From positions 310,001 through 374,000 of the forward strand of contig NGFI01000014.1 in the NCBI GenBank assembly GCA_002215645.1: a DNA stretch of 64,000 nucleotides, given 5' to 3'. The stretch is from Gemmatimonadetes bacterium 2013_60CM_65_52. GTDB taxonomy: Bacteria > Gemmatimonadota > Gemmatimonadetes > Gemmatimonadales > Gemmatimonadaceae. Numbering within the stretch: position 1 is the stretch's first letter; each line of letters starts with the position of its first letter. Made by a program: the position numbers and the translations under genes. The notes under the pieces are model-generated. The model saw only the letters and a program-made list of their open reading frames with translations. It was not told where the DNA came from and searched no databases. Shown in pieces: positions 10,057 to 22,166 of the stretch.

Positions 10057-10474
10057 GCCGCGGGAGGCCTCGGTCTTTTGTTGCGGGGGGCTGGCAGGCG
10101 GACGGCCGGTATCGACTGCGGCGTGGGGCGCTCTGCTGGCAGGAGGAACGGACAGGATCGTAAACGCTGAATTGTGCGTCGCAGGGCCGAACGTCGCCCG
10201 AATTCGCGCCCGGCATCGGGCTGCTTACGCTGACGATTGGCTGCGTCCGCGCGGCACGTGGCGCGTTGAGACCGTGAACATCGGGCGCACGACCCTTTCA
10301 GGCAATACCTCGTTACATGCATGTGGCGTTGGCGCAACAATTTGGAAGGCATTGTGACCGGACGTGTAACCGATTGTCTTTGACTGTATTGCGCCGTTTC
10401 CCGGTTAAGGCGAGATTCTGCTGGTCCGGTTGCACCTGCCCTACGACGTACCCTAGGCAATGGCGGTGGTTGAG
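10057..10474. other. Divergent intergenic region without a recognised gene
   Basis: These 418 nt separate the GT4 gene (-) from the Ig/beta-helix gene (+) and must hold promoters for both. Visible details are a perfect palindrome ACATGCATGT at 10315-10324, a GTTG-GCG-CAAC palindrome at 10328-10338 and a -35-like TTGACT near 10380 without a good -10. No convincing sigma-54 site, RNA gene or ORF with coding character was found. Confidence 0.5.
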
Positions 10475-13400
10475 ATGCGCACGATGATGAGAAAGGCTGC
10501 ACTCTCGTTCGGGTTGTTGACCCTGGCGTGCAGCAGCGGGGATATCACGTCGCCCGTCGATACCACGATTACCAGCACCACTACCAACACGCCGGCATCC
10601 GTGGAAATCACGCCGCCGACGTCCGCGACGATCACGGTGGGGACCTCGATCTCGTTGTCCGCGGTGGTGAAGAACCCCGCCGGGAAGCCGATCAACGCCG
10701 CCGTCACCTGGAGCACGTCAGACGCCACCGTCGCGTCCATCTCGTCGGCCGGGGTGCTCACCGCGATCAAGCCTGGGACCGCGACCATCACCGGCTCCGT
10801 CGGCACGCTGAACGCAGCCGTGGTCATCACGGTCATCCCGGTGCCCGTGAAGTCCGTGTCCGTATCCGTGAAGGGTGCGCTCATCGTGGGCGACGTGGCG
10901 GCGGCGACCGCCACGGCCCTCGACGCTGGCGGCAACACGCTGACCGGACGCGCGGTCGCGTGGACGACCTCGAACGCGACGGTTGCCACGGTGAGCGCTA
11001 CCGGGTCGGTAGTCGCCGTGACGCCGGGAACCGCGACCATCACCGCGACGATCGACGGAGTTCAGGGCTCGGCGAGCGTGACCGTGTCGCCCGCGCCCAT
11101 TCTCATCGCAACCATCACCGTCACCGTCAACGATCCCACGGTCTTCGCCGTCGGAACGACGACGAACGCCACCGCAGTGGTGAAGGACGGCAAGGGCAAC
11201 GTGCTCACCGACCGTGTCATCACCTGGACCAGCTCCAACCAGGACGTGGCCACCATCACGCAGGGCGGATTGATCACTGCCCAGGCAGTCGGCACCACGA
11301 CCATTACCGCGAGCAGTGAAGGCAAGAGCGGCACCGCGACGTTCACCGTGTCGCCGGCGCTCAACAACCCCGTGGCCAACGTCCAGCTCAACGCCGGTGG
11401 ACCGCTCTACCCGACACGCACGCTCCAGGTGGTTGCCACGTTGACCGATGCGCAAAACACCGTGTTGTCGGGACGCGTGATCGTGTGGACGTCCACCAAC
11501 ACGGGCGTCGCGACGGTGAGTCAGACCGGCCTCGTCTCCGCCCTCTCGGTCGGGACGACGACCATCTCCGCCGTCAGCGAAGGAAAGACCGGCACCATTC
11601 TGCTGACTGTGCTGGCCCCGCCGCTGACCACGATCACCGTGACGGCGCCGAACAGCACGCTGCAGCCCGCACAAACGACGCAGGCGACGGCGACGCTCCG
11701 CGACATCAACGGCACCGTGATGACGGGATTGCCCATCGCCTGGTCGAGCACCAGCACGGCTGTGGCCACCGTCTCGAACACGGGACTCGTGACGGCCGTC
11801 GCGTCCGGAACCACGCAGATCACCGTGACGAGCGGTACTGTGACGGGCACCCTCACGGTGACCGTCCCGCCAGTGAACACCGTGAATGTCGGTCTGCCGA
11901 ATCCCACTCGTCAGCCGGGCCAAACCACGCAGGCTACCGTTCAGTTGCTCGACGCGAGCAACAATCCAGCGACCAACCGTGTGGTGGTCTGGAGCTCATC
12001 GAACACCGCCGCGGCGACGGTCTCCGCGTCCGGACTCGTCACCGCGGTGGCGTCCGGCACGTCGCAGATCACCGTCACCAGCGAGGGCAAGACGGGTAGC
12101 GCCACCGTCACGATCCCGCCGGTCAACACGGTGAACCTCACGGCGACCACGACCTTCCTCGTGGCGGCGCAGACGCAGCAGATTGCCGTGTCGCTGCTCG
12201 ACGCGAGCAACAATGCGGCAACGAATCGTGTCGTCACGTGGTCCAGTGGCAACCCCGCGGCGGTCACCGTCAACGCCTCCGGCCTCGTCACGGCCGTGGC
12301 CACGGGGACGTCCGTGATCACCGCCACGAGCGAGGGAAAGACGGGCACCATCACGATCACGGTCGTACCGCCCGTGGGAAGCGTTCAGGTCACGTCACCT
12401 GCGGCCTCGCTGCTCAATGGGCAGACGGCGCAACTCACCGTCCTCATCCTCGATACGTTCGGCAATCCGGTCACCACCATTCCGCCGGTGTGGGCCACGA
12501 GCGACGCCACCAAGGGCACCGTGACGCAGGCGGGGCTCGTGACCGATGTGAATACGAGTACGCTCGGCAACGTGAACTTCACGGCCACCGCCGGCGGCGT
12601 GACTTCGCCCCCTGCGACCATCCAGATCATCGGTCACGGCAACGAGACCCTGGCCGCGCTCCCGCAGGTGTTCCTCAACACGGCGCCGCCGCCCGCACCT
12701 GACGTTGGCGGAGCGATCATCAGCGTCTCGACCGCGGCGCAGCTCACCGCGGCCCTGACGAACGCCACCTACGGCGACGTCATCGAGCTCCAGAGCAACA
12801 CGATCTTCGTCGGGAACTTCACGCTGCCCGGCAAGGGCGCGAACAACGGCAAGTGGATCACCATCCGTCCGCAGACGACGGGTGGCTCGACGACCCTGCC
12901 GGCACCGGGCTCACGGATGACCGCGTCCCAGGCCGCGACAGCGAACTTGCCGGTCCTCCAGACCGCCAATAACGGCGGTGCGCTTCTCACGGCGCTCTCG
13001 GCGCACCATTGGCGCATCATCGGTATCGAGGTCACCGTCACGCCAGGGAATACCGTCGGTACGTCGGCGCTCGTTCGGCTGGGAGATGGCGGTGGCGGAG
13101 GCCAGACGTCGCTCGCCGTGACGGCCAACAACCTCGTCATCGACCGCTGCTACATCCACGGGATAGCGGGGACGCCGGGTGTGGTGGCGGATATCCGTCG
13201 CGGGGTGACGCTCAACTCCGCCTCGTCCGCGGTCATCGACTCGTACATCAGTGAGATTCACGCGAACGGCGCCGACGCACAGGCCATCGCGGGCTGGAAC
13301 GGACCGGGCCCCTTCAAGATCGTGAACAACTATCTCGAGGCGTCCACCGAAAACGTGTCGTTCGGCGGCGCGGATCCCGATGCGCCGAATCTCGTGCCCA

Positions 13401-14215
13401 GCGACATCGAGATCCGCCACAATCACTTCTTCAAGCAGACCTCGTGGAAGGGCGTCTGGCTCGTGAAGAATCTCTTCGAGACCAAGAACGCCATGCGCGT
13501 GCTGGTCGAAGGGAACCTCATGCAGAACAACTGGCTCGACGGCCAGGGCGGCAGCGCCATCAACATGAAGTCCACCAACCAGAGTGGCGGCTGCAACTGG
13601 TGCGGTACGCAGGACGTCACGTTCCGCTACAACATGATCGAGAACACCGGCGCCGGAATCGTCATCTCGGCGGATCCCGATCCGAACTTCACGCAGTTCC
13701 CGCTGCAGCGCGTCACCATCCACGACAACGTGATCGCGAACGTCGACGTTCCGCCCACGTTCAATGGTGACGGCAGAGGCTTGCTGGTCAACCAGGACGT
13801 GCGCGATGTCACGTTCCGGCACAATACGATCATCAATCCGACCAATTCTGCGGTGCTGTTCGGCGGACCGCAGAACACGCCGCCTCTCCGCCTGGTCGTT
13901 CGGGACAACATCATCGGCGGCGGTGCTTTCGGCGTGAAGGGACCCGGGCTCACCTCCGGAACACCGAGTATCACTGCGTTCATGCCGGAAGGCTTCTGGT
14001 TCGCCAACGCGCTCATTCTGTCGAGCTCCAGCGGGTATCCAACCGGCGGCTTCTATCCCGCGACGGTCGGAGCCGTGAATTTCGCGAATACCGCGGCATT
14101 CGATTACTCGCTGCTGTCCAGCAGCCCGCTCAAGGCCAAGGGCAGCGACGGACTCGATCTTGGCGCCGACACCGCCACCATCAACGCGCTTCTGGCGAAC
14201 ATCATCGTGCCCTGA
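10475..14215 (+). CDS. Lipoprotein with eight BIG2 Ig-like repeats fused to a right-handed beta-helix domain
   Basis: A lipoprotein signal ends in LLTLACSSGD, the Cys being the lipidation site. About eight BIG2-type repeats follow, each about 82 residues with the pattern V-x-W-S/T-S...VATV...GLVTAV..GT..IT, spanning roughly residues 40-715. The C-terminal 500 residues form a parallel beta-helix with many N-rich turns (NNYLEAS, DIEIRHNHFF, VTIHDNVIANV). The beta-helix is closely similar to the protein at 16832-18442. The start could be any of the ATGs at 10460, 10475, 10484 or 10487; 10475 has GGTGG upstream and gives a normal signal length. Such proteins are surface-exposed; beta-helix domains often bind or cut polysaccharide, but no catalytic residues can be named. 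Confidence 0.88.
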   Translation: MRTMMRKAALSFGLLTLACSSGDITSPVDTTITSTTTNTPASVEITPPTSATITVGTSISLSAVVKNPAGKPINAAVTWSTSDATVASISSAGVLTAIKPGTATITGSVGTLNAAVVITVIPVPVKSVSVSVKGALIVGDVAAATATALDAGGNTLTGRAVAWTTSNATVATVSATGSVVAVTPGTATITATIDGVQGSASVTVSPAPILIATITVTVNDPTVFAVGTTTNATAVVKDGKGNVLTDRVITWTSSNQDVATITQGGLITAQAVGTTTITASSEGKSGTATFTVSPALNNPVANVQLNAGGPLYPTRTLQVVATLTDAQNTVLSGRVIVWTSTNTGVATVSQTGLVSALSVGTTTISAVSEGKTGTILLTVLAPPLTTITVTAPNSTLQPAQTTQATATLRDINGTVMTGLPIAWSSTSTAVATVSNTGLVTAVASGTTQITVTSGTVTGTLTVTVPPVNTVNVGLPNPTRQPGQTTQATVQLLDASNNPATNRVVVWSSSNTAAATVSASGLVTAVASGTSQITVTSEGKTGSATVTIPPVNTVNLTATTTFLVAAQTQQIAVSLLDASNNAATNRVVTWSSGNPAAVTVNASGLVTAVATGTSVITATSEGKTGTITITVVPPVGSVQVTSPAASLLNGQTAQLTVLILDTFGNPVTTIPPVWATSDATKGTVTQAGLVTDVNTSTLGNVNFTATAGGVTSPPATIQIIGHGNETLAALPQVFLNTAPPPAPDVGGAIISVSTAAQLTAALTNATYGDVIELQSNTIFVGNFTLPGKGANNGKWITIRPQTTGGSTTLPAPGSRMTASQAATANLPVLQTANNGGALLTALSAHHWRIIGIEVTVTPGNTVGTSALVRLGDGGGGGQTSLAVTANNLVIDRCYIHGIAGTPGVVADIRRGVTLNSASSAVIDSYISEIHANGADAQAIAGWNGPGPFKIVNNYLEASTENVSFGGADPDAPNLVPSDIEIRHNHFFKQTSWKGVWLVKNLFETKNAMRVLVEGNLMQNNWLDGQGGSAINMKSTNQSGGCNWCGTQDVTFRYNMIENTGAGIVISADPDPNFTQFPLQRVTIHDNVIANVDVPPTFNGDGRGLLVNQDVRDVTFRHNTIINPTNSAVLFGGPQNTPPLRLVVRDNIIGGGAFGVKGPGLTSGTPSITAFMPEGFWFANALILSSSSGYPTGGFYPATVGAVNFANTAAFDYSLLSSSPLKAKGSDGLDLGADTATINALLANIIVP

Positions 14216-15598: not shown

Positions 15599-16798
15599 TT
15601 GATCGTGAATCCCCTTTCCATCGTTCGTTCGGGTTGGCATGAGCTGACCCGCCGGCCGGCCTCGCAGGTGCCTGCGCTGGACGCGCTTCGCGCATTCGCG
15701 ATCTTTCTCGTCGTCGGAGCGCACTACGCCGGCAGCCAATGGCCGCTGGCCAAGGCGCCGGACATCGCGTTGGCGCACAATCCGGTGTTCAACTTCGGTT
15801 GGACCGGCGTGGATCTCTTCTTCGTGCTGAGCGGGCTGCTCATCGGCAAACAGCTCTGGCGCGAGCTGGACCGCACGGGAACGGTGCGCGTGCCGCGCTT
15901 TCTGCTGCGCCGCGGATTCCGCATCTGGCCGCTGTACTTCGCCATGATGTTCTGGGTGGTGTTCATCCACGGCATGCGCTTCGAGTGGCCGGATTGGGTC
16001 TTTCTCTCGAACTACTTCCCCACGCGGTATGGCCGCTCCTGGTCGCTGTCCACCGAGGAGCAGTTCTACATTGCCGTTCCGATCCTGCTGCTCCTGACCA
16101 CGCGGTTTCTTCCGCGGCGCGCACAGGCGTGGCCGCTGGTTGGAGCGGTCGTCGCCATTCCCATCGTGCGCGTGTTCCAGCGCCAGCATCTCGAGGCCGT
16201 TGGAATGTCGCCCGATCGGCTGGCGGACCAGATGCACTTCCCCATTCACGTCCACTGTGAGGCACTGATCATCGGCCTCCTGCTCGCGCTCCTGAGCACG
16301 CGTTACAAGAGCGTGTTCGAAGCGCGCGGGCGCTGGGGCACTTCACCGCTGGCGTTGGCGGTATTCGTCGGCTGCACGGCACTCGGCCTCGCGCTCGACC
16401 GGATGAACAAGGACATCTTCGCCTTTCTCGCGCTCGGTCTCATCTTCGGGTCGCTGACGTTCCTCACGCTGGCCGACCGGTCGATCATCACGCGTCCGCT
16501 CAACTCGGTGTTCTTCTATCCGTTCTCGCGTCTCGCGTACGGCATGTACCTCAATCACTTCTGGTTTCTCCACGGCAGCACGGCCTGGACGATTCACACT
16601 TTCGGGCCGCTGTTGCCTTCGCCCACGCTGGTATTTCTCCTGGGCCTCGTGGTCGGGACCGGGATCTCGGCGGGAGTGGCGGCAATCAGCTTCATTCTCA
16701 TCGAGCATCCGTTCCTGCAGCTTCGCGAGCACCTCCTCGGTGATCGGGAGGCCGTGCCCGCACCCGCCGTACCCGCGCCTGAAGCGGCTCTCGCCTGA
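15599..16798 (+). CDS. Acyltransferase 3 family membrane O-acyltransferase (OafA-like)
   Basis: The 399-residue protein has about ten transmembrane helices. The family hallmarks are LDALRAFAIFLVVGAHY (the conserved R and H near the first helix), FGWTGVDLFFVLSGLLIG, and SLSTEEQFYIAVP with the loop Trp/Glu pattern. Family members transfer acyl groups, usually acetyl or succinyl, from cytosolic donors to exported sugars. The first start is TTG at 15599 with GTG at 15605 as alternative; neither has a clear ribosome site. It is separate from the MBOAT module further downstream, so the cluster has two different glycan acylation routes. Confidence 0.88.
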   Translation: MIVNPLSIVRSGWHELTRRPASQVPALDALRAFAIFLVVGAHYAGSQWPLAKAPDIALAHNPVFNFGWTGVDLFFVLSGLLIGKQLWRELDRTGTVRVPRFLLRRGFRIWPLYFAMMFWVVFIHGMRFEWPDWVFLSNYFPTRYGRSWSLSTEEQFYIAVPILLLLTTRFLPRRAQAWPLVGAVVAIPIVRVFQRQHLEAVGMSPDRLADQMHFPIHVHCEALIIGLLLALLSTRYKSVFEARGRWGTSPLALAVFVGCTALGLALDRMNKDIFAFLALGLIFGSLTFLTLADRSIITRPLNSVFFYPFSRLAYGMYLNHFWFLHGSTAWTIHTFGPLLPSPTLVFLLGLVVGTGISAGVAAISFILIEHPFLQLREHLLGDREAVPAPAVPAPEAALA

Positions 16799-16831: not shown

Positions 16832-18442
16832 ATGTTCGTCAACCGCATCCTCGGCTGTGGCTTGCTGGCGCTCTGCGCCGCGGCGGGCGCGCAACCGTCC
16901 GGCGAAGCGGCCGTCGCTGCCCTCCCTCGAGTGCTGCTCGACACCCGCATGCCCCTGGTGCAGGGAAGGAGCTGGACGGTCGGCCCACGCGACAATCTCC
17001 AGACGGCGCTCAACCGCGCTCAGCCCGGGGACGAGATCGTGCTGCAGGCTGGTGCGACGTATGTCGGCGGTTTCACGCTGCCCCTGAAGACTGGAGCGCG
17101 GATGCCCGGCTCCGGGCCGGTCATCGTCGTACGCAGCTCGGCGATGGCGAACCTGCCCGAGGGTAAGCGCGTCGGTCCACGGGACTCGTCGTCACTCGCA
17201 CGCCTGGTGACGCCGCAGAATGGCGTCGAGGTGTTGGGCACCGCGGCTGGCACGGCCGGCTGGCGGCTCATCGGCCTCGACGTCACCGCGGCACCCGCCG
17301 TCACTCAGCTCGGACGGCTCGTGCGATTCGGCGACGGATCGCAGGCCCAGCGAACGGACGCCATGGTGCCGCAGAACATCGTGCTCGATCGCAGCTACGT
17401 GCATGCGGGCACCACGGTCGACATACGTCGCTGCATCGACCTTCACAGCGGCGCGAGCGCAATCATCGACAGCTATGTCGCCGGCTGTCATTCCAACTCC
17501 GACGCACAGGCGATTGCTGGCTGGAACGGTCCGGGACCATACAAGATCGTCAACAACTATCTCGAGGCGTCCACCGAGAACGTCTCCTTCGGCGGCGCGG
17601 ACCCGGGCATACGCGACCTCGTGCCGAGCGACATCGAGATCCGTCATAACCACCTCTTCAAGCCGGTGGCGTGGAAGGGTGTGTGGCTGGTGAAGAATCT
17701 GCTCGAAACGAAGAGCGCGTCGCGTGTGCTCATCGAGGGCAACGTCTTCGAGAACAACTGGCAGCACGGCCAGGGAGGCAGCGCCATCGTGCTGAAGTCC
17801 ACCAATCAGGACGGCGCATGTCCGTGGTGCGGGACCTCCGACGTCACTTTCCGGCTCAATCTCATCAGAAATACCGGCTCGGGGTTCGCCATCTCCGGAG
17901 CGCCGGATCCGAACGTCACGCGAGTGCACCTCCAGCGGCTCACGGTCACCGACAACATCGTCGTGAACATCGACGTGGCGCCCATGTTCGGCGGCGACGG
18001 GCGCGCCATCATGCTGGTGGGCGATCCATCGGATGTGATTTTCGCGCACAACACCATCTTGAGCCCATCGAACGCGGCAGTGTTGTTTGCCGGTCCGCTC
18101 GAGACCCCGCCACAGCGGCTCGTCATTCGAGACAACATCATCGGCGGTGGGGCCTATGGCGTGAAAGGTCCCGGTCTCGGCGGCGGGAACGCGACCATCG
18201 CGGCATTCATGCGCGGAGGAGCATTCACGCACAACGTGGTCATACTCGGCAGCGCCGCTGGCTACCCCGAAGGGAATTACTATCCGCAACGAGTCGAGAT
18301 GCTCGGCTTCGTCAGCCCGCCGTCGCTCGATTTTCGGCTGTCTCCGATGAGTGCCCTACGCGGCCGTGGCACGGACGGCAAGGACATCGGCGCCGACGCG
18401 AATGCCGTGAGCGCAGCGATCGCGGGAGTCGTGATCCCCTGA
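16832..18442 (+). CDS. Secreted right-handed beta-helix protein, paralogue of the 10475-14215 C-terminal domain
   Basis: A Sec signal peptide (residues 1-20, ending AAAGA before QPSGE) precedes about 510 residues of beta-helix. It shares long near-identical blocks with the C-terminal domain of the 10475-14215 protein, for example IVNNYLEASTENVSFGGADP, SDIEIRHNHLFK, WKGVWLVKNLLETK and a CPWCGTSDVTFR pair of cysteines. Both copies therefore descend from one gene; here the Ig repeats are absent. It starts 34 nt after the acyltransferase and is followed by the MBOAT gene 40 nt downstream, so it is probably in one transcript. A polysaccharide lyase or epimerase role is possible from the fold alone; no active-site residues are recognised. 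Confidence 0.85.
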   Translation: MFVNRILGCGLLALCAAAGAQPSGEAAVAALPRVLLDTRMPLVQGRSWTVGPRDNLQTALNRAQPGDEIVLQAGATYVGGFTLPLKTGARMPGSGPVIVVRSSAMANLPEGKRVGPRDSSSLARLVTPQNGVEVLGTAAGTAGWRLIGLDVTAAPAVTQLGRLVRFGDGSQAQRTDAMVPQNIVLDRSYVHAGTTVDIRRCIDLHSGASAIIDSYVAGCHSNSDAQAIAGWNGPGPYKIVNNYLEASTENVSFGGADPGIRDLVPSDIEIRHNHLFKPVAWKGVWLVKNLLETKSASRVLIEGNVFENNWQHGQGGSAIVLKSTNQDGACPWCGTSDVTFRLNLIRNTGSGFAISGAPDPNVTRVHLQRLTVTDNIVVNIDVAPMFGGDGRAIMLVGDPSDVIFAHNTILSPSNAAVLFAGPLETPPQRLVIRDNIIGGGAYGVKGPGLGGGNATIAAFMRGGAFTHNVVILGSAAGYPEGNYYPQRVEMLGFVSPPSLDFRLSPMSALRGRGTDGKDIGADANAVSAAIAGVVIP

Positions 18443-18482: not shown

Positions 18483-19892
18483 ATGACGAGCCTGTATCTC
18501 TGGTTCCTCTTCGGCCTGCCCGCTCTCTGGCTGCTTGCTCGCACCATGCGGCCGGTGCGCGGCCGCCAACTCCTGTTCCTCGCGGCCAGCTACGCGTTCT
18601 ATCTCACGTTCGGCTGGCGCTTCTTCGTCATTCTGATCGCGAGCTCGCTCTTCAATTTCGTCTGGGGCGGCGTCATTCGACGAACGCCGACGGCGAGGAT
18701 GCTCTGGATCGGCATCGTGGCGAACGTGGCGCTCCTGAGCGTGTTCAAGTACCTGCCATCCCTCGCCAGCGTCTTCGCTGATTCAACCGGTCTGGCCGCC
18801 CGAGTCGCGCACCTCGCGCTGCCCATCGGCATTTCGTTCTGGACGTTTCAGGGGCTCAGCTATCTCTTCGATCAGTACCGCGGCGAGCAGCTCGATCCGT
18901 CGCTGACGGAATTCCTGTTGTACATGGGGTTTGCGCCGACGGTTCTCTCGGGCCCCATCTGCCGCCTGCCGGAGTTGCTGCCGCAGCTCCGACACGAATC
19001 ACGCGCGACGTGGGAGAACGTCGTCGCCGGTGCGCGGAGCGTGTGGGTCGGAGTTCTGCTGATCACGCTCGGCCGGCTTCTGGGCGGCGGATGGAATGGA
19101 CAGGGCGTGAACTGGGGGTTCGATCACGTCTCGTCGCATCTCCCATTTGGCGACACATGGCTTCTGCTCATCGGCTACGGCTTTCAGCTCCTGTTCGACT
19201 TTGCGGGCTATACACGTGTCGTCATCGGCATCGCGCAGGCGTTCGGCATTCTCCTGCCGGAGAACTTCCGGCGCCCGTATCTTTCCACCACGCCGTCGGT
19301 CTTCTGGACGCGATGGCACATGACGCTTTCATTCTGGATTCGCGACTATCTCTTCATTCCGCTTGCCACCGTGCGGCGCGAGGTGTGGTGGCGGAATCTG
19401 ATGCTCGTCATGTCCATGGTGGTGTTCGGCCTGTGGCACAAGGCGAGTCTCCTCTTCATCGTGTGGGGCACGTATCAGGGGCTGTTGCTTCTCGCACACC
19501 GGCTCACACAGCAATGGCAGCGACGCAACGGTGTGCAGTTCAGTGGCGTGATGGGGAGCGTGAGCTCCTGGGCCATCACGTTCGTCGCCATCAATCTCGG
19601 CTGGATCCTTTTTCGCGCGCGTGACTGGTCGCAGGCCGGCGACCTGTTTCGTTCCGCCGTGAATCCGTTCGCATCGGGCGCATCCGTTCTCCCGGTGAGC
19701 TTCGTGGTGCTCGTCGTCGGCATCGTCGTCGCCTATTTCCTGATCGAGGGCTGGGCGGAGCGCAAGGGAGAAAGTCATTCGTTGCTCGCCAGGCTGCCCA
19801 TCGAGCTCAGGTTCGCCTGCTACGCGGGCATCTTCTATTTCGCGCTCTTCCACACCGCCGAGCCGCAGTCGTTCATCTATTTTCAGTTCTGA
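18483..19892 (+). CDS. MBOAT family membrane O-acyltransferase (AlgI/DltB-like)
   Basis: The 469-residue protein has about eleven hydrophobic segments. The active-site histidine is H319 in FGLWHKASLLFIVWG, the MBOAT hallmark. Other family features are ALPIGISFWTFQGLSYLFDQ, MGFAPTVLSGPICR (the conserved P-x-x-x-x-GP-I/L re-entrant region) and NFRRPYLSTTPSVFWTRWHM. MBOATs such as AlgI and DltB move acyl groups across the membrane to exported glycans. The stop overlaps the SGNH start as TGATG, so the two proteins are translationally coupled. The carrier protein two genes downstream suggests a carrier-bound donor, as for DltB. Confidence 0.92.
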   Translation: MTSLYLWFLFGLPALWLLARTMRPVRGRQLLFLAASYAFYLTFGWRFFVILIASSLFNFVWGGVIRRTPTARMLWIGIVANVALLSVFKYLPSLASVFADSTGLAARVAHLALPIGISFWTFQGLSYLFDQYRGEQLDPSLTEFLLYMGFAPTVLSGPICRLPELLPQLRHESRATWENVVAGARSVWVGVLLITLGRLLGGGWNGQGVNWGFDHVSSHLPFGDTWLLLIGYGFQLLFDFAGYTRVVIGIAQAFGILLPENFRRPYLSTTPSVFWTRWHMTLSFWIRDYLFIPLATVRREVWWRNLMLVMSMVVFGLWHKASLLFIVWGTYQGLLLLAHRLTQQWQRRNGVQFSGVMGSVSSWAITFVAINLGWILFRARDWSQAGDLFRSAVNPFASGASVLPVSFVVLVVGIVVAYFLIEGWAERKGESHSLLARLPIELRFACYAGIFYFALFHTAEPQSFIYFQF

Positions 19893-20965
19893 TGATCTCG
19901 CCACTCAGGGCCGCTCGCGGCGGTGTCGCGCTGGCCGTCTTCGTCCTCGCGCTGGAGGGGTGGGCACGTCTCGACGATCATCTCACGTACGGCGCGCCGT
20001 TGACCGGCCCCTACAACGCCGAGATCCTGTATACAAGGGACACGCTGGGGCGGGTCGGGAAGCCGCATGCGCGCTATCGAAAGTGGGGGCTCAACGAGGC
20101 GGGCTTTCGCGGCCCCGAGCTCGAGCCGGACAGGCTCACGATCCTCGCTTTCGGCGCCTCGGAGACCTTCGGGCTCTATGAGGACGAGGGCCAGGAGTAT
20201 CCGCGGCAGCTCGAGCACTTTCTGAACGCGCGCATCGGGCGTGACGCCGTGCAGGTGGTGAACGCTGCCTATCCCGGCGAATCCGCCTACACCGCGGACG
20301 TACGCGCACCGGAGATCGTAGATCGGCTGCATGCACGCGTAGCCATCGTATACCCGACGCCCGCGGACTACATCTGGCTTCCGTTTCTCAAGCCAAAGCC
20401 GGCGCGGGAAGGAGCGGCCAAGGTGGCCGAACCGTTTGAGTGGCGCATCGCCGACCGGCTGCGCACGTTCCTCAAGGGCATACTGCCACAGCGCGTTCAG
20501 ACGCGTCTCCGCGCACGGGAAACGCGGATCGCGGAGTCGGGGTTCACGGTGATGGACCGGTTGCCCGAGGAGAACGTGCGGCGCTTTCGGGACGACGTCG
20601 CCCATCTCGTGCAGACGCTGAAGGCGCGCGGTGTGGCGCCCGTCATCGTCACGCACGCAAATCTCTTCGGTAACGGAGGGCAGGAGCGGGATCGCGCGCA
20701 GCTCGTCGCTTGGCGCAAGTTCTATCCGATGCTTCGCGAGGAGGGCTTCGCGGACATGGAGCGCCGCATGAACGACGCGCTTCGCGCCGTGGCCGCGGAG
20801 GAGAGGGTGCCGCTCATCGACGTCGCGGCATCCATGCCCGGCGGCCATCAGAACTTCGCCGACTTTGTTCACTTCACCAACCGGGGCGCCACGTTGATGG
20901 CACAACAGCTGGCCAACGGACTCTATCCCGTCGTCGAGAATGTCATGCGCGGACCGCGCCAATGA
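19892..20965 (+). CDS. Membrane-anchored SGNH/GDSL-type esterase or transferase (AlgJ/DltD-like role)
   Basis: The 357-residue protein has an N-terminal anchor (GVALAVFVLALEGWARL, residues 11-27) and an extracytoplasmic SGNH domain. The nucleophile motif is FGASETFG with S90. The Gly block is NAAYPGES, and the catalytic pair is D324-x-x-H327 in DFVHFTNRG, so all hydrolase-type residues are present. Such partners of MBOAT proteins (AlgJ, AlgX, DltD, PatB) hand the acyl group to the final glycan. The start overlaps the MBOAT stop, and the 3' end overlaps the LnmK-like gene as ATGA. The middle part (residues 160-260) is family-variable. Confidence 0.85.
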   Translation: MISPLRAARGGVALAVFVLALEGWARLDDHLTYGAPLTGPYNAEILYTRDTLGRVGKPHARYRKWGLNEAGFRGPELEPDRLTILAFGASETFGLYEDEGQEYPRQLEHFLNARIGRDAVQVVNAAYPGESAYTADVRAPEIVDRLHARVAIVYPTPADYIWLPFLKPKPAREGAAKVAEPFEWRIADRLRTFLKGILPQRVQTRLRARETRIAESGFTVMDRLPEENVRRFRDDVAHLVQTLKARGVAPVIVTHANLFGNGGQERDRAQLVAWRKFYPMLREEGFADMERRMNDALRAVAAEERVPLIDVAASMPGGHQNFADFVHFTNRGATLMAQQLANGLYPVVENVMRGPRQ

Positions 20966-21891
20966 AATCGCAATTCCATCTCGAGCTCGGCATGCCGCAT
21001 CTCGGCAGAAACAACTTGTCCGAGAGCTCCCTGTTCAAGGCCATCGGCAATGACCGATGGAAGCAGATCGAGATCGCGGGCAAGGTGCCGACGTCCCTCA
21101 TTCAGGACGACGCGGGCTCCCGCCTGTACGCCACGTTCTTCTTTCTCGAGGTGCACTTCGCACCGGACCATCCGCTGTCCGCGCATGGTGAGAACGAGAC
21201 GATGCATTTCGACACGGATCTCTGGCACTGCCGCCAGGTGCACCTCGATGGAAAGCATGTGCTGACGGGTACGCCGCAGCATTGGATCCGCAGCAGCAAC
21301 GTCTTCATCTATCAGGAGCGCGGCCCATCGAAGCTGTCCATGTCCATTCCGGCGAACATGGACTTCTCGGAAATTCCGGAGCTCGACGAGCAGCCCGATT
21401 CGCTCGCCATGTGCCGCGCCGCGCGCGCGGAGGGACGATTCTTCGCGCCCGAGCCGGACGATGTGGATGTGTACGAGGGCGAGCGCGTGTTCCACTACAC
21501 GTTCGACCAGGATCGCGACATGAACGGCGCGGGCCTCATCTACTTCGCCAACTTCATCTCCATTCTGGATGCGTCCGAGCGCGGCGTGCTGGCGGACCTG
21601 CCACATCAGATCCCGCCGTCGGCGCTCGACGCTCGATCCACCTGGAAGCGGCGCGTCGGGTACTACGGAAATGCGCCGGCAACCGATAGCTTGAGGGTGT
21701 TCGTGAAGACCCGCATGCGCGCATTGCCCGACGCGCAGCACGGGCGGCTGCTCGATCTCGCTTTCGACTACCGTATTCGCCGCGCGTCCGACGAGAAGGA
21801 GATCGTGGTGTCGTCGTGCCGCAAAGTCAGCCCCATGAAAGACGGTTCACCCGAAGCCGCCTGGTTCAGCGCAATGACCGGTGGCGCGTGA
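20962..21891 (+). CDS. LnmK-like acyltransferase/decarboxylase (Pnap_2097 family, double hot-dog fold)
   Basis: The 309-residue protein opens with LELGMPHLGRNNLSESSLFK, the diagnostic start of the LnmK/Pnap_2097 family (conserved GMP-L-x-R-x-x-LSE). SRLYATFFFLEVHF and FANFISILDASERG are the hot-dog helix/strand regions of the two halves. Known LnmK takes methylmalonyl-CoA, loads the acyl onto an ACP and decarboxylates it to propionyl-ACP. Whether this protein has the same chemistry is inference. The start is fixed by the ATGA overlap with the SGNH gene, and an ACP gene follows 17 nt downstream, which supports an ACP-loading role. No signal peptide: cytoplasmic. Confidence 0.75.
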   Translation: MKSQFHLELGMPHLGRNNLSESSLFKAIGNDRWKQIEIAGKVPTSLIQDDAGSRLYATFFFLEVHFAPDHPLSAHGENETMHFDTDLWHCRQVHLDGKHVLTGTPQHWIRSSNVFIYQERGPSKLSMSIPANMDFSEIPELDEQPDSLAMCRAARAEGRFFAPEPDDVDVYEGERVFHYTFDQDRDMNGAGLIYFANFISILDASERGVLADLPHQIPPSALDARSTWKRRVGYYGNAPATDSLRVFVKTRMRALPDAQHGRLLDLAFDYRIRRASDEKEIVVSSCRKVSPMKDGSPEAAWFSAMTGGA

Positions 21892-21908
21892 CACACGGAG
21901 GAGCAGGA

Positions 21909-22166
21909 ATGGCGAGCAGTCCCGAAGCGCAGGCCCTGATCGACTACCTGAAGAAGAAAGTGCTCCTCGATCCGTCCGTCGACATCGCGGAAACGACGCC
22001 ACTGGTCTCGTCGGGCCTCGTGGACTCCTTTGCGCTCATCGAGGTGCTGATGGAGCTGGAGAAGGTGACTAAACGTCGTATCTCGCCGGGGAAAGTAGGC
22101 GCGAAGGACATGGACACCATCGCCCTCATGCTGGCGACTGCGGAACGGGTGGGCGTTCAGCGCTGA
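21909..22166 (+). CDS. Acyl carrier protein
   Basis: The 85-residue acidic helical protein has the phosphopantetheine attachment serine S40 in GLVDSFALIEVLMELEK, the D-S-F/L-x-L-x-E context of carrier proteins. A strong GGAGGAG ribosome site lies just before ATG 21909; the open frame upstream is in the preceding gene. It is the last gene of the MBOAT-SGNH-LnmK-like-ACP string and would carry the acyl group made by the LnmK-like enzyme. No acyl-ACP ligase or fatty-acid synthesis gene is nearby. The 3' end overlaps the convergent GT4 gene by 41 nt. Confidence 0.92.
   Translation: MASSPEAQALIDYLKKKVLLDPSVDIAETTPLVSSGLVDSFALIEVLMELEKVTKRRISPGKVGAKDMDTIALMLATAERVGVQR

Follow-up and report, generated by a model that had tools for sequence, protein, structure and literature searches.

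In the window, by which we mean the whole analysed stretch of 64,000 nucleotides from contig NGFI01000014.1 of Gemmatimonadetes bacterium 2013_60CM_65_52, four adjacent genes at positions 18483-22166 encode an MBOAT acyltransferase, an SGNH protein, a protein of the LnmK family and an acyl carrier protein (ACP). This cassette, a candidate Dlt-like acylation system, consists of the following features:

18483-19892, + strand: MBOAT acyltransferase related to DltB (469 amino acids; PF03062, DltB homology)
19892-20965, + strand: SGNH/GDSL protein (357 amino acids; PF13472, SGNH fold model, S90/D324/H327)
20962-21891, + strand: LnmK-family double hot-dog protein (309 amino acids; TIGR04098, AlphaFold 2 model)
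21909-22166, + strand: acyl carrier protein (85 amino acids; Ser40 phosphopantetheine site, GLVDSFAL)

The gene junctions are TGATG, then ATGA, then a 17-nt gap. These junctions and the gene positions had been given in an initial annotation made from the letters of the DNA, and the open reading frames (ORFs) confirm them. That annotation compared the set to the dlt operon, with an LnmK-like loader in place of the adenylating DltA.

The LnmK-like protein scores 125.8 bits against TIGR04098 LnmK_bifunc (curated cut-off 100). Its AlphaFold model, built on an alignment of 80 sequences with plasmid rows left out (mean pLDDT 96.5, pTM 0.93), shows a double hot-dog fold. The seven top matches in the PDB are all LnmK structures, the best being 4hzn (TM 0.79/0.82, E 8e-22), so that both the assignment and the hot-dog fold expected by the initial annotation stand. 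Relatives were collected as the 80 best from a scan of 84,980 species genomes, and plasmid homologues were added for a context set of 88 rows (numbered L below; genomes are numbered G). Y56 aligns with the active-site Tyr of LnmK, which we take to be Tyr62, and is present in 87 of the 88 rows. The loop Asn N188 occurs in 88/88 rows and residue 190 is Ala or Val in 88/88 (DxNG[A/V]), but the scan pattern DxNG..YF forced the former and, in most rows, the latter. An Asn on a comparable loop is used by LnmK for decarboxylation (PMC8666670). No Pfam family was matched by the protein, hence not that of MadA/MadB (Pfam 09500). Membership of the Pnap_2097 family (TIGR04099) was rejected, since the score of 67.6 bits is well below the cut-off of 125 and the protein falls into a different clade of the tree. 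We propose that the LnmK-like protein is a decarboxylating acyl-CoA:ACP loader.

Acyl-ACP thioesterases also resemble the double hot-dog model (TM ~0.55). Accordingly, the protein could serve to remove wrong acyl groups from the ACP, as a thioesterase or editing enzyme, with another enzyme loading the carrier and the MBOAT-SGNH pair acylating in the ordinary way. We regard this as decidedly unlikely. Thioesterases rank behind LnmK in the fold search (E ~2e-11 as against 8e-22), and DxNG[A/V] does not have the His that follows the Asn at the corresponding motif position in FatA/FatB. Moreover, the ACP fusions and adjacent mutase genes described below point to loading, and there is no ligase nearby.

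The ACP stays slightly below the PF00550 cut-off (18.8 bits, cut-off 20.8) and scores 17 bits against the DltC model, whose cut-off is 68. Because the Pfam score falls short of the threshold, the protein was assigned by its motif, conservation and homologues; it is conserved in L022, L023 and L024, matches a local ACP profile, and has its serine at position 40, as annotated. Phosphopantetheinyl transferases were detected in the genome containing the window (G000, 4.2 Mb). On the contig of the cassette no AMP-binding enzyme, be it DltA or another adenylating ligase, is encoded within ~97 kb of it; the nearest AMP-binding matches there are ORFs of the size of non-ribosomal peptide synthetases (NRPS). 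A hidden DltA-like ligase near the cassette was therefore ruled out, and the annotated Dlt-like logic of ACP, MBOAT and SGNH protein without an adenylating ligase is borne out. A big cluster with NRPS-size AMP-binding ORFs and a phosphopantetheinyl transferase lies ~100 kb upstream on the window contig (G000 C3:189015-231674).

The MBOAT matches PF03062 with 55 bits (cut-off 27) and the solved DltB structures 8jem/6bug with E 1e-26 (phmmer). Against the DltB model TIGR04091 it reaches 145 bits of the 375 set as cut-off, which makes it a relative of DltB and not DltB itself. H319, pointed out by the initial annotation, is invariant in 16/16 aligned MBOATs, as is H279. The protein ends in FIYFQF (residues 464-469, with Tyr466), which fits the acyl-shuttle motif FXYXXF. 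MBOAT-SGNH pairs use the Tyr of this C-terminal motif as acyl shuttle; in PatA the motif is part of the MBOAT itself, in Dlt it belongs to the microprotein DltX (PMC12148441). Both arrangements are found among the cassettes. Long MBOATs (469-493 amino acids) carry the motif at the C-terminus, with LLYRLF as the variant in L024. The complete short ones (367-395 amino acids; L028, L031, L032, L035, L036) each have instead a nearby ORF that ends in FIYQGF, FIYRGF or FVYFNF after one predicted transmembrane (TM) segment. A separate shuttle microprotein is thus present in L027/L028/L031, L032, L035 and L036. In the three loci where the start codon was placed it has 36-49 residues:

L032, 10857-10967: DltX-like microprotein with one TM segment and FXYXXF end
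L036, 11133-11243: DltX-like microprotein with one TM segment and FXYXXF end
L035, 9618-9767: DltX-like microprotein with one TM segment and FXYXXF end

This complementarity between long fused and short MBOATs supports shuttle chemistry for the MBOAT and brings the relatives functionally close to Dlt. The initial annotation, otherwise supported, had overlooked the C-terminal motif and the DltX-like microproteins of the relatives, as well as the hexapeptide fusions described below. Such microproteins in metagenome-assembled genomes (MAGs) of Gram-negative type are small enough to escape the usual gene-length cut-offs. The record of L031 is labelled Klebsiella pneumoniae, yet it is nearly identical here to the alphaproteobacterial MAG L028, and the label looks wrong.

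The SGNH protein has a short hydrophobic segment at its N-terminus and matches PF13472 with 43.5 bits (cut-off 32.9). Among 14 aligned SGNH proteins S90 is invariant and D324 and H327 are at least 90% conserved, in agreement with the catalytic set named at the outset. The core of its model is an SGNH fold (best PDB match E 2e-8 in the fold search). In sequence there is no match to DltD, and searching the PDB by sequence returned nothing but matches to helical repeats, none of them relevant. Outside the genus, SGNH partners were recognised by block I (GDS/GNS/GAS/GSS) and DxxH motifs, together with a local profile made from them; those tested had no match in Pfam. We propose that the SGNH protein is a periplasmic acyl transferase in the role of DltD or PatB.

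The closest named relatives of the window LnmK protein are Gemmatimonadota MAGs. Two congeneric species retain all four genes in unchanged order, with 63-78% protein identity over the full genes. In one of them (G082, L010) the exosortase, methyltransferase and glycosyltransferase genes around the cassette are the same but differently ordered, which indicates that the cassette moves as one block within the locus. Beyond the genus, an LnmK-like gene together with an MBOAT gene, mostly with SGNH and ACP genes, occurs in at least eight phyla, rarely but repeatedly. MBOAT-linked rows belong to Gemmatimonadota (L022, L023, L056), Acidobacteriota (L024, L032), Verrucomicrobiota (L025, L038), Bdellovibrionota (L035), Nitrospirota (L036), Zixibacteria (L037), Planctomycetota (L101) and Bacteroidota (L076), and to MAGs that are labelled Pseudomonadota or unplaced (L027/L028/L031). 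Near the last three no SGNH partner was detected by profile, and on this evidence these cassettes are incomplete. The gene order varies: MBOAT-SGNH-LnmK-ACP in the window and L024, ACP-LnmK-SGNH-MBOAT in L032 and L036, ACP-LnmK-MBOAT-SGNH in L035, MBOAT-SGNH-ACP-LnmK in L101, and MBOAT-SGNH followed by a fused ACP-LnmK in L038 and L157. Further LnmK-like rows are linked or fused to hexapeptide acyltransferases, in many Alphaproteobacteria and some Acidobacteria and Bacteroidota; the remaining ones lie in nit1C clusters, in polyketide synthase (PKS) clusters or are unassigned. In the tree, every MBOAT-linked row except L076 falls into one group of 31 rows (SH-aLRT 99%), which also includes the leinamycin-type LnmK on a long branch and hence with unsure placement. 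The nit1C proteins form a separate group.

As an out-of-sample test, 338 Verrucomicrobiota and 347 Acidobacteriota genomes were sampled. They contained three new full-length LnmK-like genes, each with an ACP fused or adjacent: L157 reads MBOAT-SGNH-[ACP-LnmK]-mutase, L158 has a hexapeptide gene plus a fused ACP-LnmK, and in L159 ACP-LnmK adjoins genes which by inspection are radical-SAM-like and methyltransferase-like. LnmK-like proteins above the cut-off were found in 3/148 genomes of the window's family and in 2/395 sampled in the phylum, so the system is rare.

In known MBOAT-SGNH systems outside Dlt the donor is acyl-CoA, without carrier protein or DltX-like microprotein, and long MBOATs with a fused shuttle are of this acyl-CoA-using type (PMC12148441). 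The MBOAT might likewise use acyl-CoA as PatA does, with LnmK and ACP serving a separate reaction and lying nearby by coincidence. This is very improbable, however. MBOAT genes occur at ~0.44 per Mb (47 matches in ~108 Mb of 21 related genomes), which gives a chance of ~0.3% per locus for one within 3 kb of an LnmK-like gene, as compared to 16/88 rows observed, in several phyla and with altered gene order. Chance clustering was likewise ruled out by conservation in the two congeners and recurrence across phyla, and the refuting case named by the initial annotation, that other genomes never keep the genes together, does not apply.

Natural fusions indicate what the LnmK-like protein acts on. 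ACP and LnmK are joined in L025, L026, L038 and L157, which makes loading of the ACP by the LnmK-like protein likely. In some Alphaproteobacteria and Acidobacteria hexapeptide acyltransferase, ACP and LnmK form a single polypeptide: L033 and L049 are of this kind, with hexapeptide and PP-binding domains that pass the Pfam thresholds, and L067 shares the domain order, its ACP being weak. L015, on plasmid pRLO149_63 of Roseobacter litoralis, is an LnmK-hexapeptide fusion within a polysaccharide locus. This coupling of the proposed decarboxylative ACP loader to an unrelated fold of sugar acyltransferase suggests that the job of the module is supply of an acyl donor.

The donor is indicated by neighbouring methylmalonyl-CoA mutase genes. 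In L038 the small and large mutase genes directly follow the fused ACP-LnmK gene (PF01642, 68.8 and 671.9 bits), and a mutase also lies downstream of ACP-LnmK in L025 and L157. In the Verrucomicrobia genomes G416 and G636 the cassette genes are the only mutase matches found, and the carboxyltransferase matches of G416 are all of the short AccA/AccD type. The mutase therefore looks dedicated, converting succinyl-CoA to methylmalonyl-CoA. A mutase also adjoins the LnmK-like gene in six nit1C loci (L017, L019, L021, L051, L066, L088). The Pnap_2097-type relative beside a mutase in these nitrilase clusters suggests that this uncharacterised pathway includes an acyl transfer. A mutase is also present in the window genome, as are long carboxyltransferases of the propionyl-CoA-carboxylase type, so that propionyl-ACP is feasible there. 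Judged by gene content, the donor in the window and in Verrucomicrobia is probably propionyl-ACP; propionylation is the possibility that the initial annotation had raised for the window, and the Verrucomicrobia loci strengthen it for that phylum.

The acceptor is suggested by the surrounding locus. Neighbours of the cassette are genes for an exosortase, EpsI/DUF3485, several glycosyltransferases, a nucleotide-sugar dehydrogenase, a Wzy-like ligase and a Wzz/Wzc-like protein, and further heparinase-like and asparagine-synthase-like genes. The upstream beta-helix gene ends 40 nt before the cassette. Downstream genes are convergent, and at 22126-22166 the last part of the ACP gene is shared with the 3' end of a glycosyltransferase ORF on the minus strand. 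Two related right-handed beta-helix proteins (10460-14215; 16832-18442), one of them with ~8 Big_2 repeats, share near-identical stretches; they flank a glycosyltransferase and an AT3 gene and are both also kept in G082.

We propose, with a probability of roughly three in four, that the cassette encodes an ACP-dependent MBOAT-SGNH pathway which O-acylates an exported polysaccharide, with decarboxylative loading in place of DltA. The LnmK-like enzyme would transfer the acyl group of (methyl)malonyl-CoA to the phosphopantetheine on Ser40 of the ACP with decarboxylation, standing in for ATP-dependent DltA and giving a short acyl-ACP: propionyl-ACP from methylmalonyl-CoA, which is favoured here, or acetyl-ACP from malonyl-CoA. 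On the cytoplasmic side the ACP would deliver the acyl group to the MBOAT, which would pass it via H319 to Tyr466 of its own FIYFQF motif on the outside. Ser90 of the SGNH protein would then receive it and hand it on to a hydroxyl on the polysaccharide that the exosortase-type locus produces. Sequence or model show the parts and their residues, the fold, the shuttle motif and the linkage or fusion of LnmK with ACP and acyltransferase; the reactions, donor and acceptor are inferred from these.

Several points weigh against this proposal. In the structural alignment the LnmK-like protein shares ~17% of its residues with LnmK. By its model, the SGNH protein is similar to esterases and thioesterases in general, so that it could be a transferase or a hydrolase. 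An AT3 acyltransferase gene (PF01757) at 15599-16798 in the same locus may mean more than one acylation enzyme, from two unrelated systems, for one polymer. Finally, no mutase match was found in the cassette genomes G419 (Nitrospira) and G421 (Bdellovibrionales), both MAGs and maybe incomplete, and their carboxyltransferase matches are short, of AccA/AccD size only. Methylmalonyl-CoA was for this reason ruled out as a universal donor. In these two genomes, where a propionyl donor is probably wrong, gene content makes conversion of malonyl-CoA to acetyl-ACP the likelier route; elsewhere the donor is uncertain.

One may extend this to all cassettes: the same pathway would use acetyl-ACP made from malonyl-CoA in a MadA/MadB-like manner, and its product would be an ordinary O-acetyl ester. 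Malonyl-CoA is likely available in G419 and G421, and MadB is a hot-dog decarboxylase able to yield acetyl-ACP (PMC8666670). Three Verrucomicrobia cassettes with a mutase, the mutase genes of the nit1C clusters and the presence of a mutase in 16/18 genomes with a cassette or hexapeptide counterpart argue in the other direction and leave this extension possible but doubtful. Known LnmK, too, reportedly specifies (2R)-methylmalonyl-CoA, according to the title of Lohman and Shen 2020 as cited in PMC8666670.

The acceptor could also be a lipid, a surface protein or a secondary metabolite, as LnmK-like genes are found in PKS and nit1C clusters as well. We consider this unlikely, since the cassettes of the window and L010 lie within exosortase/glycosyltransferase loci, related LnmK-ACP modules are fused to hexapeptide acyltransferases (with the L015 fusion in a plasmid polysaccharide locus), and envelope polymers are the targets of MBOAT-SGNH pairs with the shuttle motif (PMC12148441).

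The proposed pathway shares with Dlt (DltA, DltB, DltC, DltD, DltX; D-alanylation of teichoic acid) a DltB-related MBOAT, the FXYXXF shuttle and, as proposed, a carrier-bound donor and an SGNH partner, and several relatives combine a DltB-length MBOAT with a separate DltX-like microprotein. In contrast to Dlt, an LnmK-family protein takes the place of the adenylating ligase, D-Ala is not expected, the hosts are genomes of Gram-negative type, and the window shuttle is fused to the MBOAT. PatA/PatB, AlgI/AlgJ/AlgX and WssH/WssI resemble the cassette in their fused C-terminal shuttle hexapeptide, SGNH partner and envelope or exopolysaccharide acceptor, but differ from it in lacking an ACP with an LnmK-like loader. 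LnmK itself, the methylmalonyl-CoA:ACP acyltransferase/decarboxylase of leinamycin synthesis, corresponds to the cassette protein in family, fold, Tyr and Asn positions and an accompanying ACP; the cassette protein, however, occurs in a polysaccharide and MBOAT context instead of a polyketide synthase, and its substrate is predicted. The Pnap_2097 family is homologous in fold and sometimes encoded next to a mutase, but belongs to another clade. MadA/MadB likewise supply short acyl-ACP for envelope sugars by hot-dog decarboxylation, but with a single hot dog that acts on already loaded malonyl-ACP. Our search of the open-licence literature gave no paper on LnmK-like or LnmK-family proteins, none on LnmK with MBOAT in full text, and nothing useful on propionylated exopolysaccharides. 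Judged by this literature and general knowledge, related cassettes appear to be undescribed.

More broadly, we lean slightly towards a rare but widespread form of glycan acylation, apparently undescribed, whose acyl groups would come from a decarboxylative supply module of LnmK-family enzyme plus dedicated ACP that serves two unrelated acyltransferase types, MBOAT-SGNH pairs with a fused or a separate DltX-like shuttle and cytoplasmic hexapeptide enzymes. The acyl group would be propionyl where methylmalonyl-CoA is available, in Verrucomicrobia via the dedicated mutase, and acetyl elsewhere. All steps can be reconstituted with small soluble proteins and a single membrane protein. If the proposal is true, the LnmK family gains a role in polysaccharide modification and propionylated exopolysaccharides are to be expected. 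Besides Dlt there would then be a second carrier-dependent branch of MBOAT-SGNH systems, in Gram-negative phyla and powered by decarboxylation instead of ATP.

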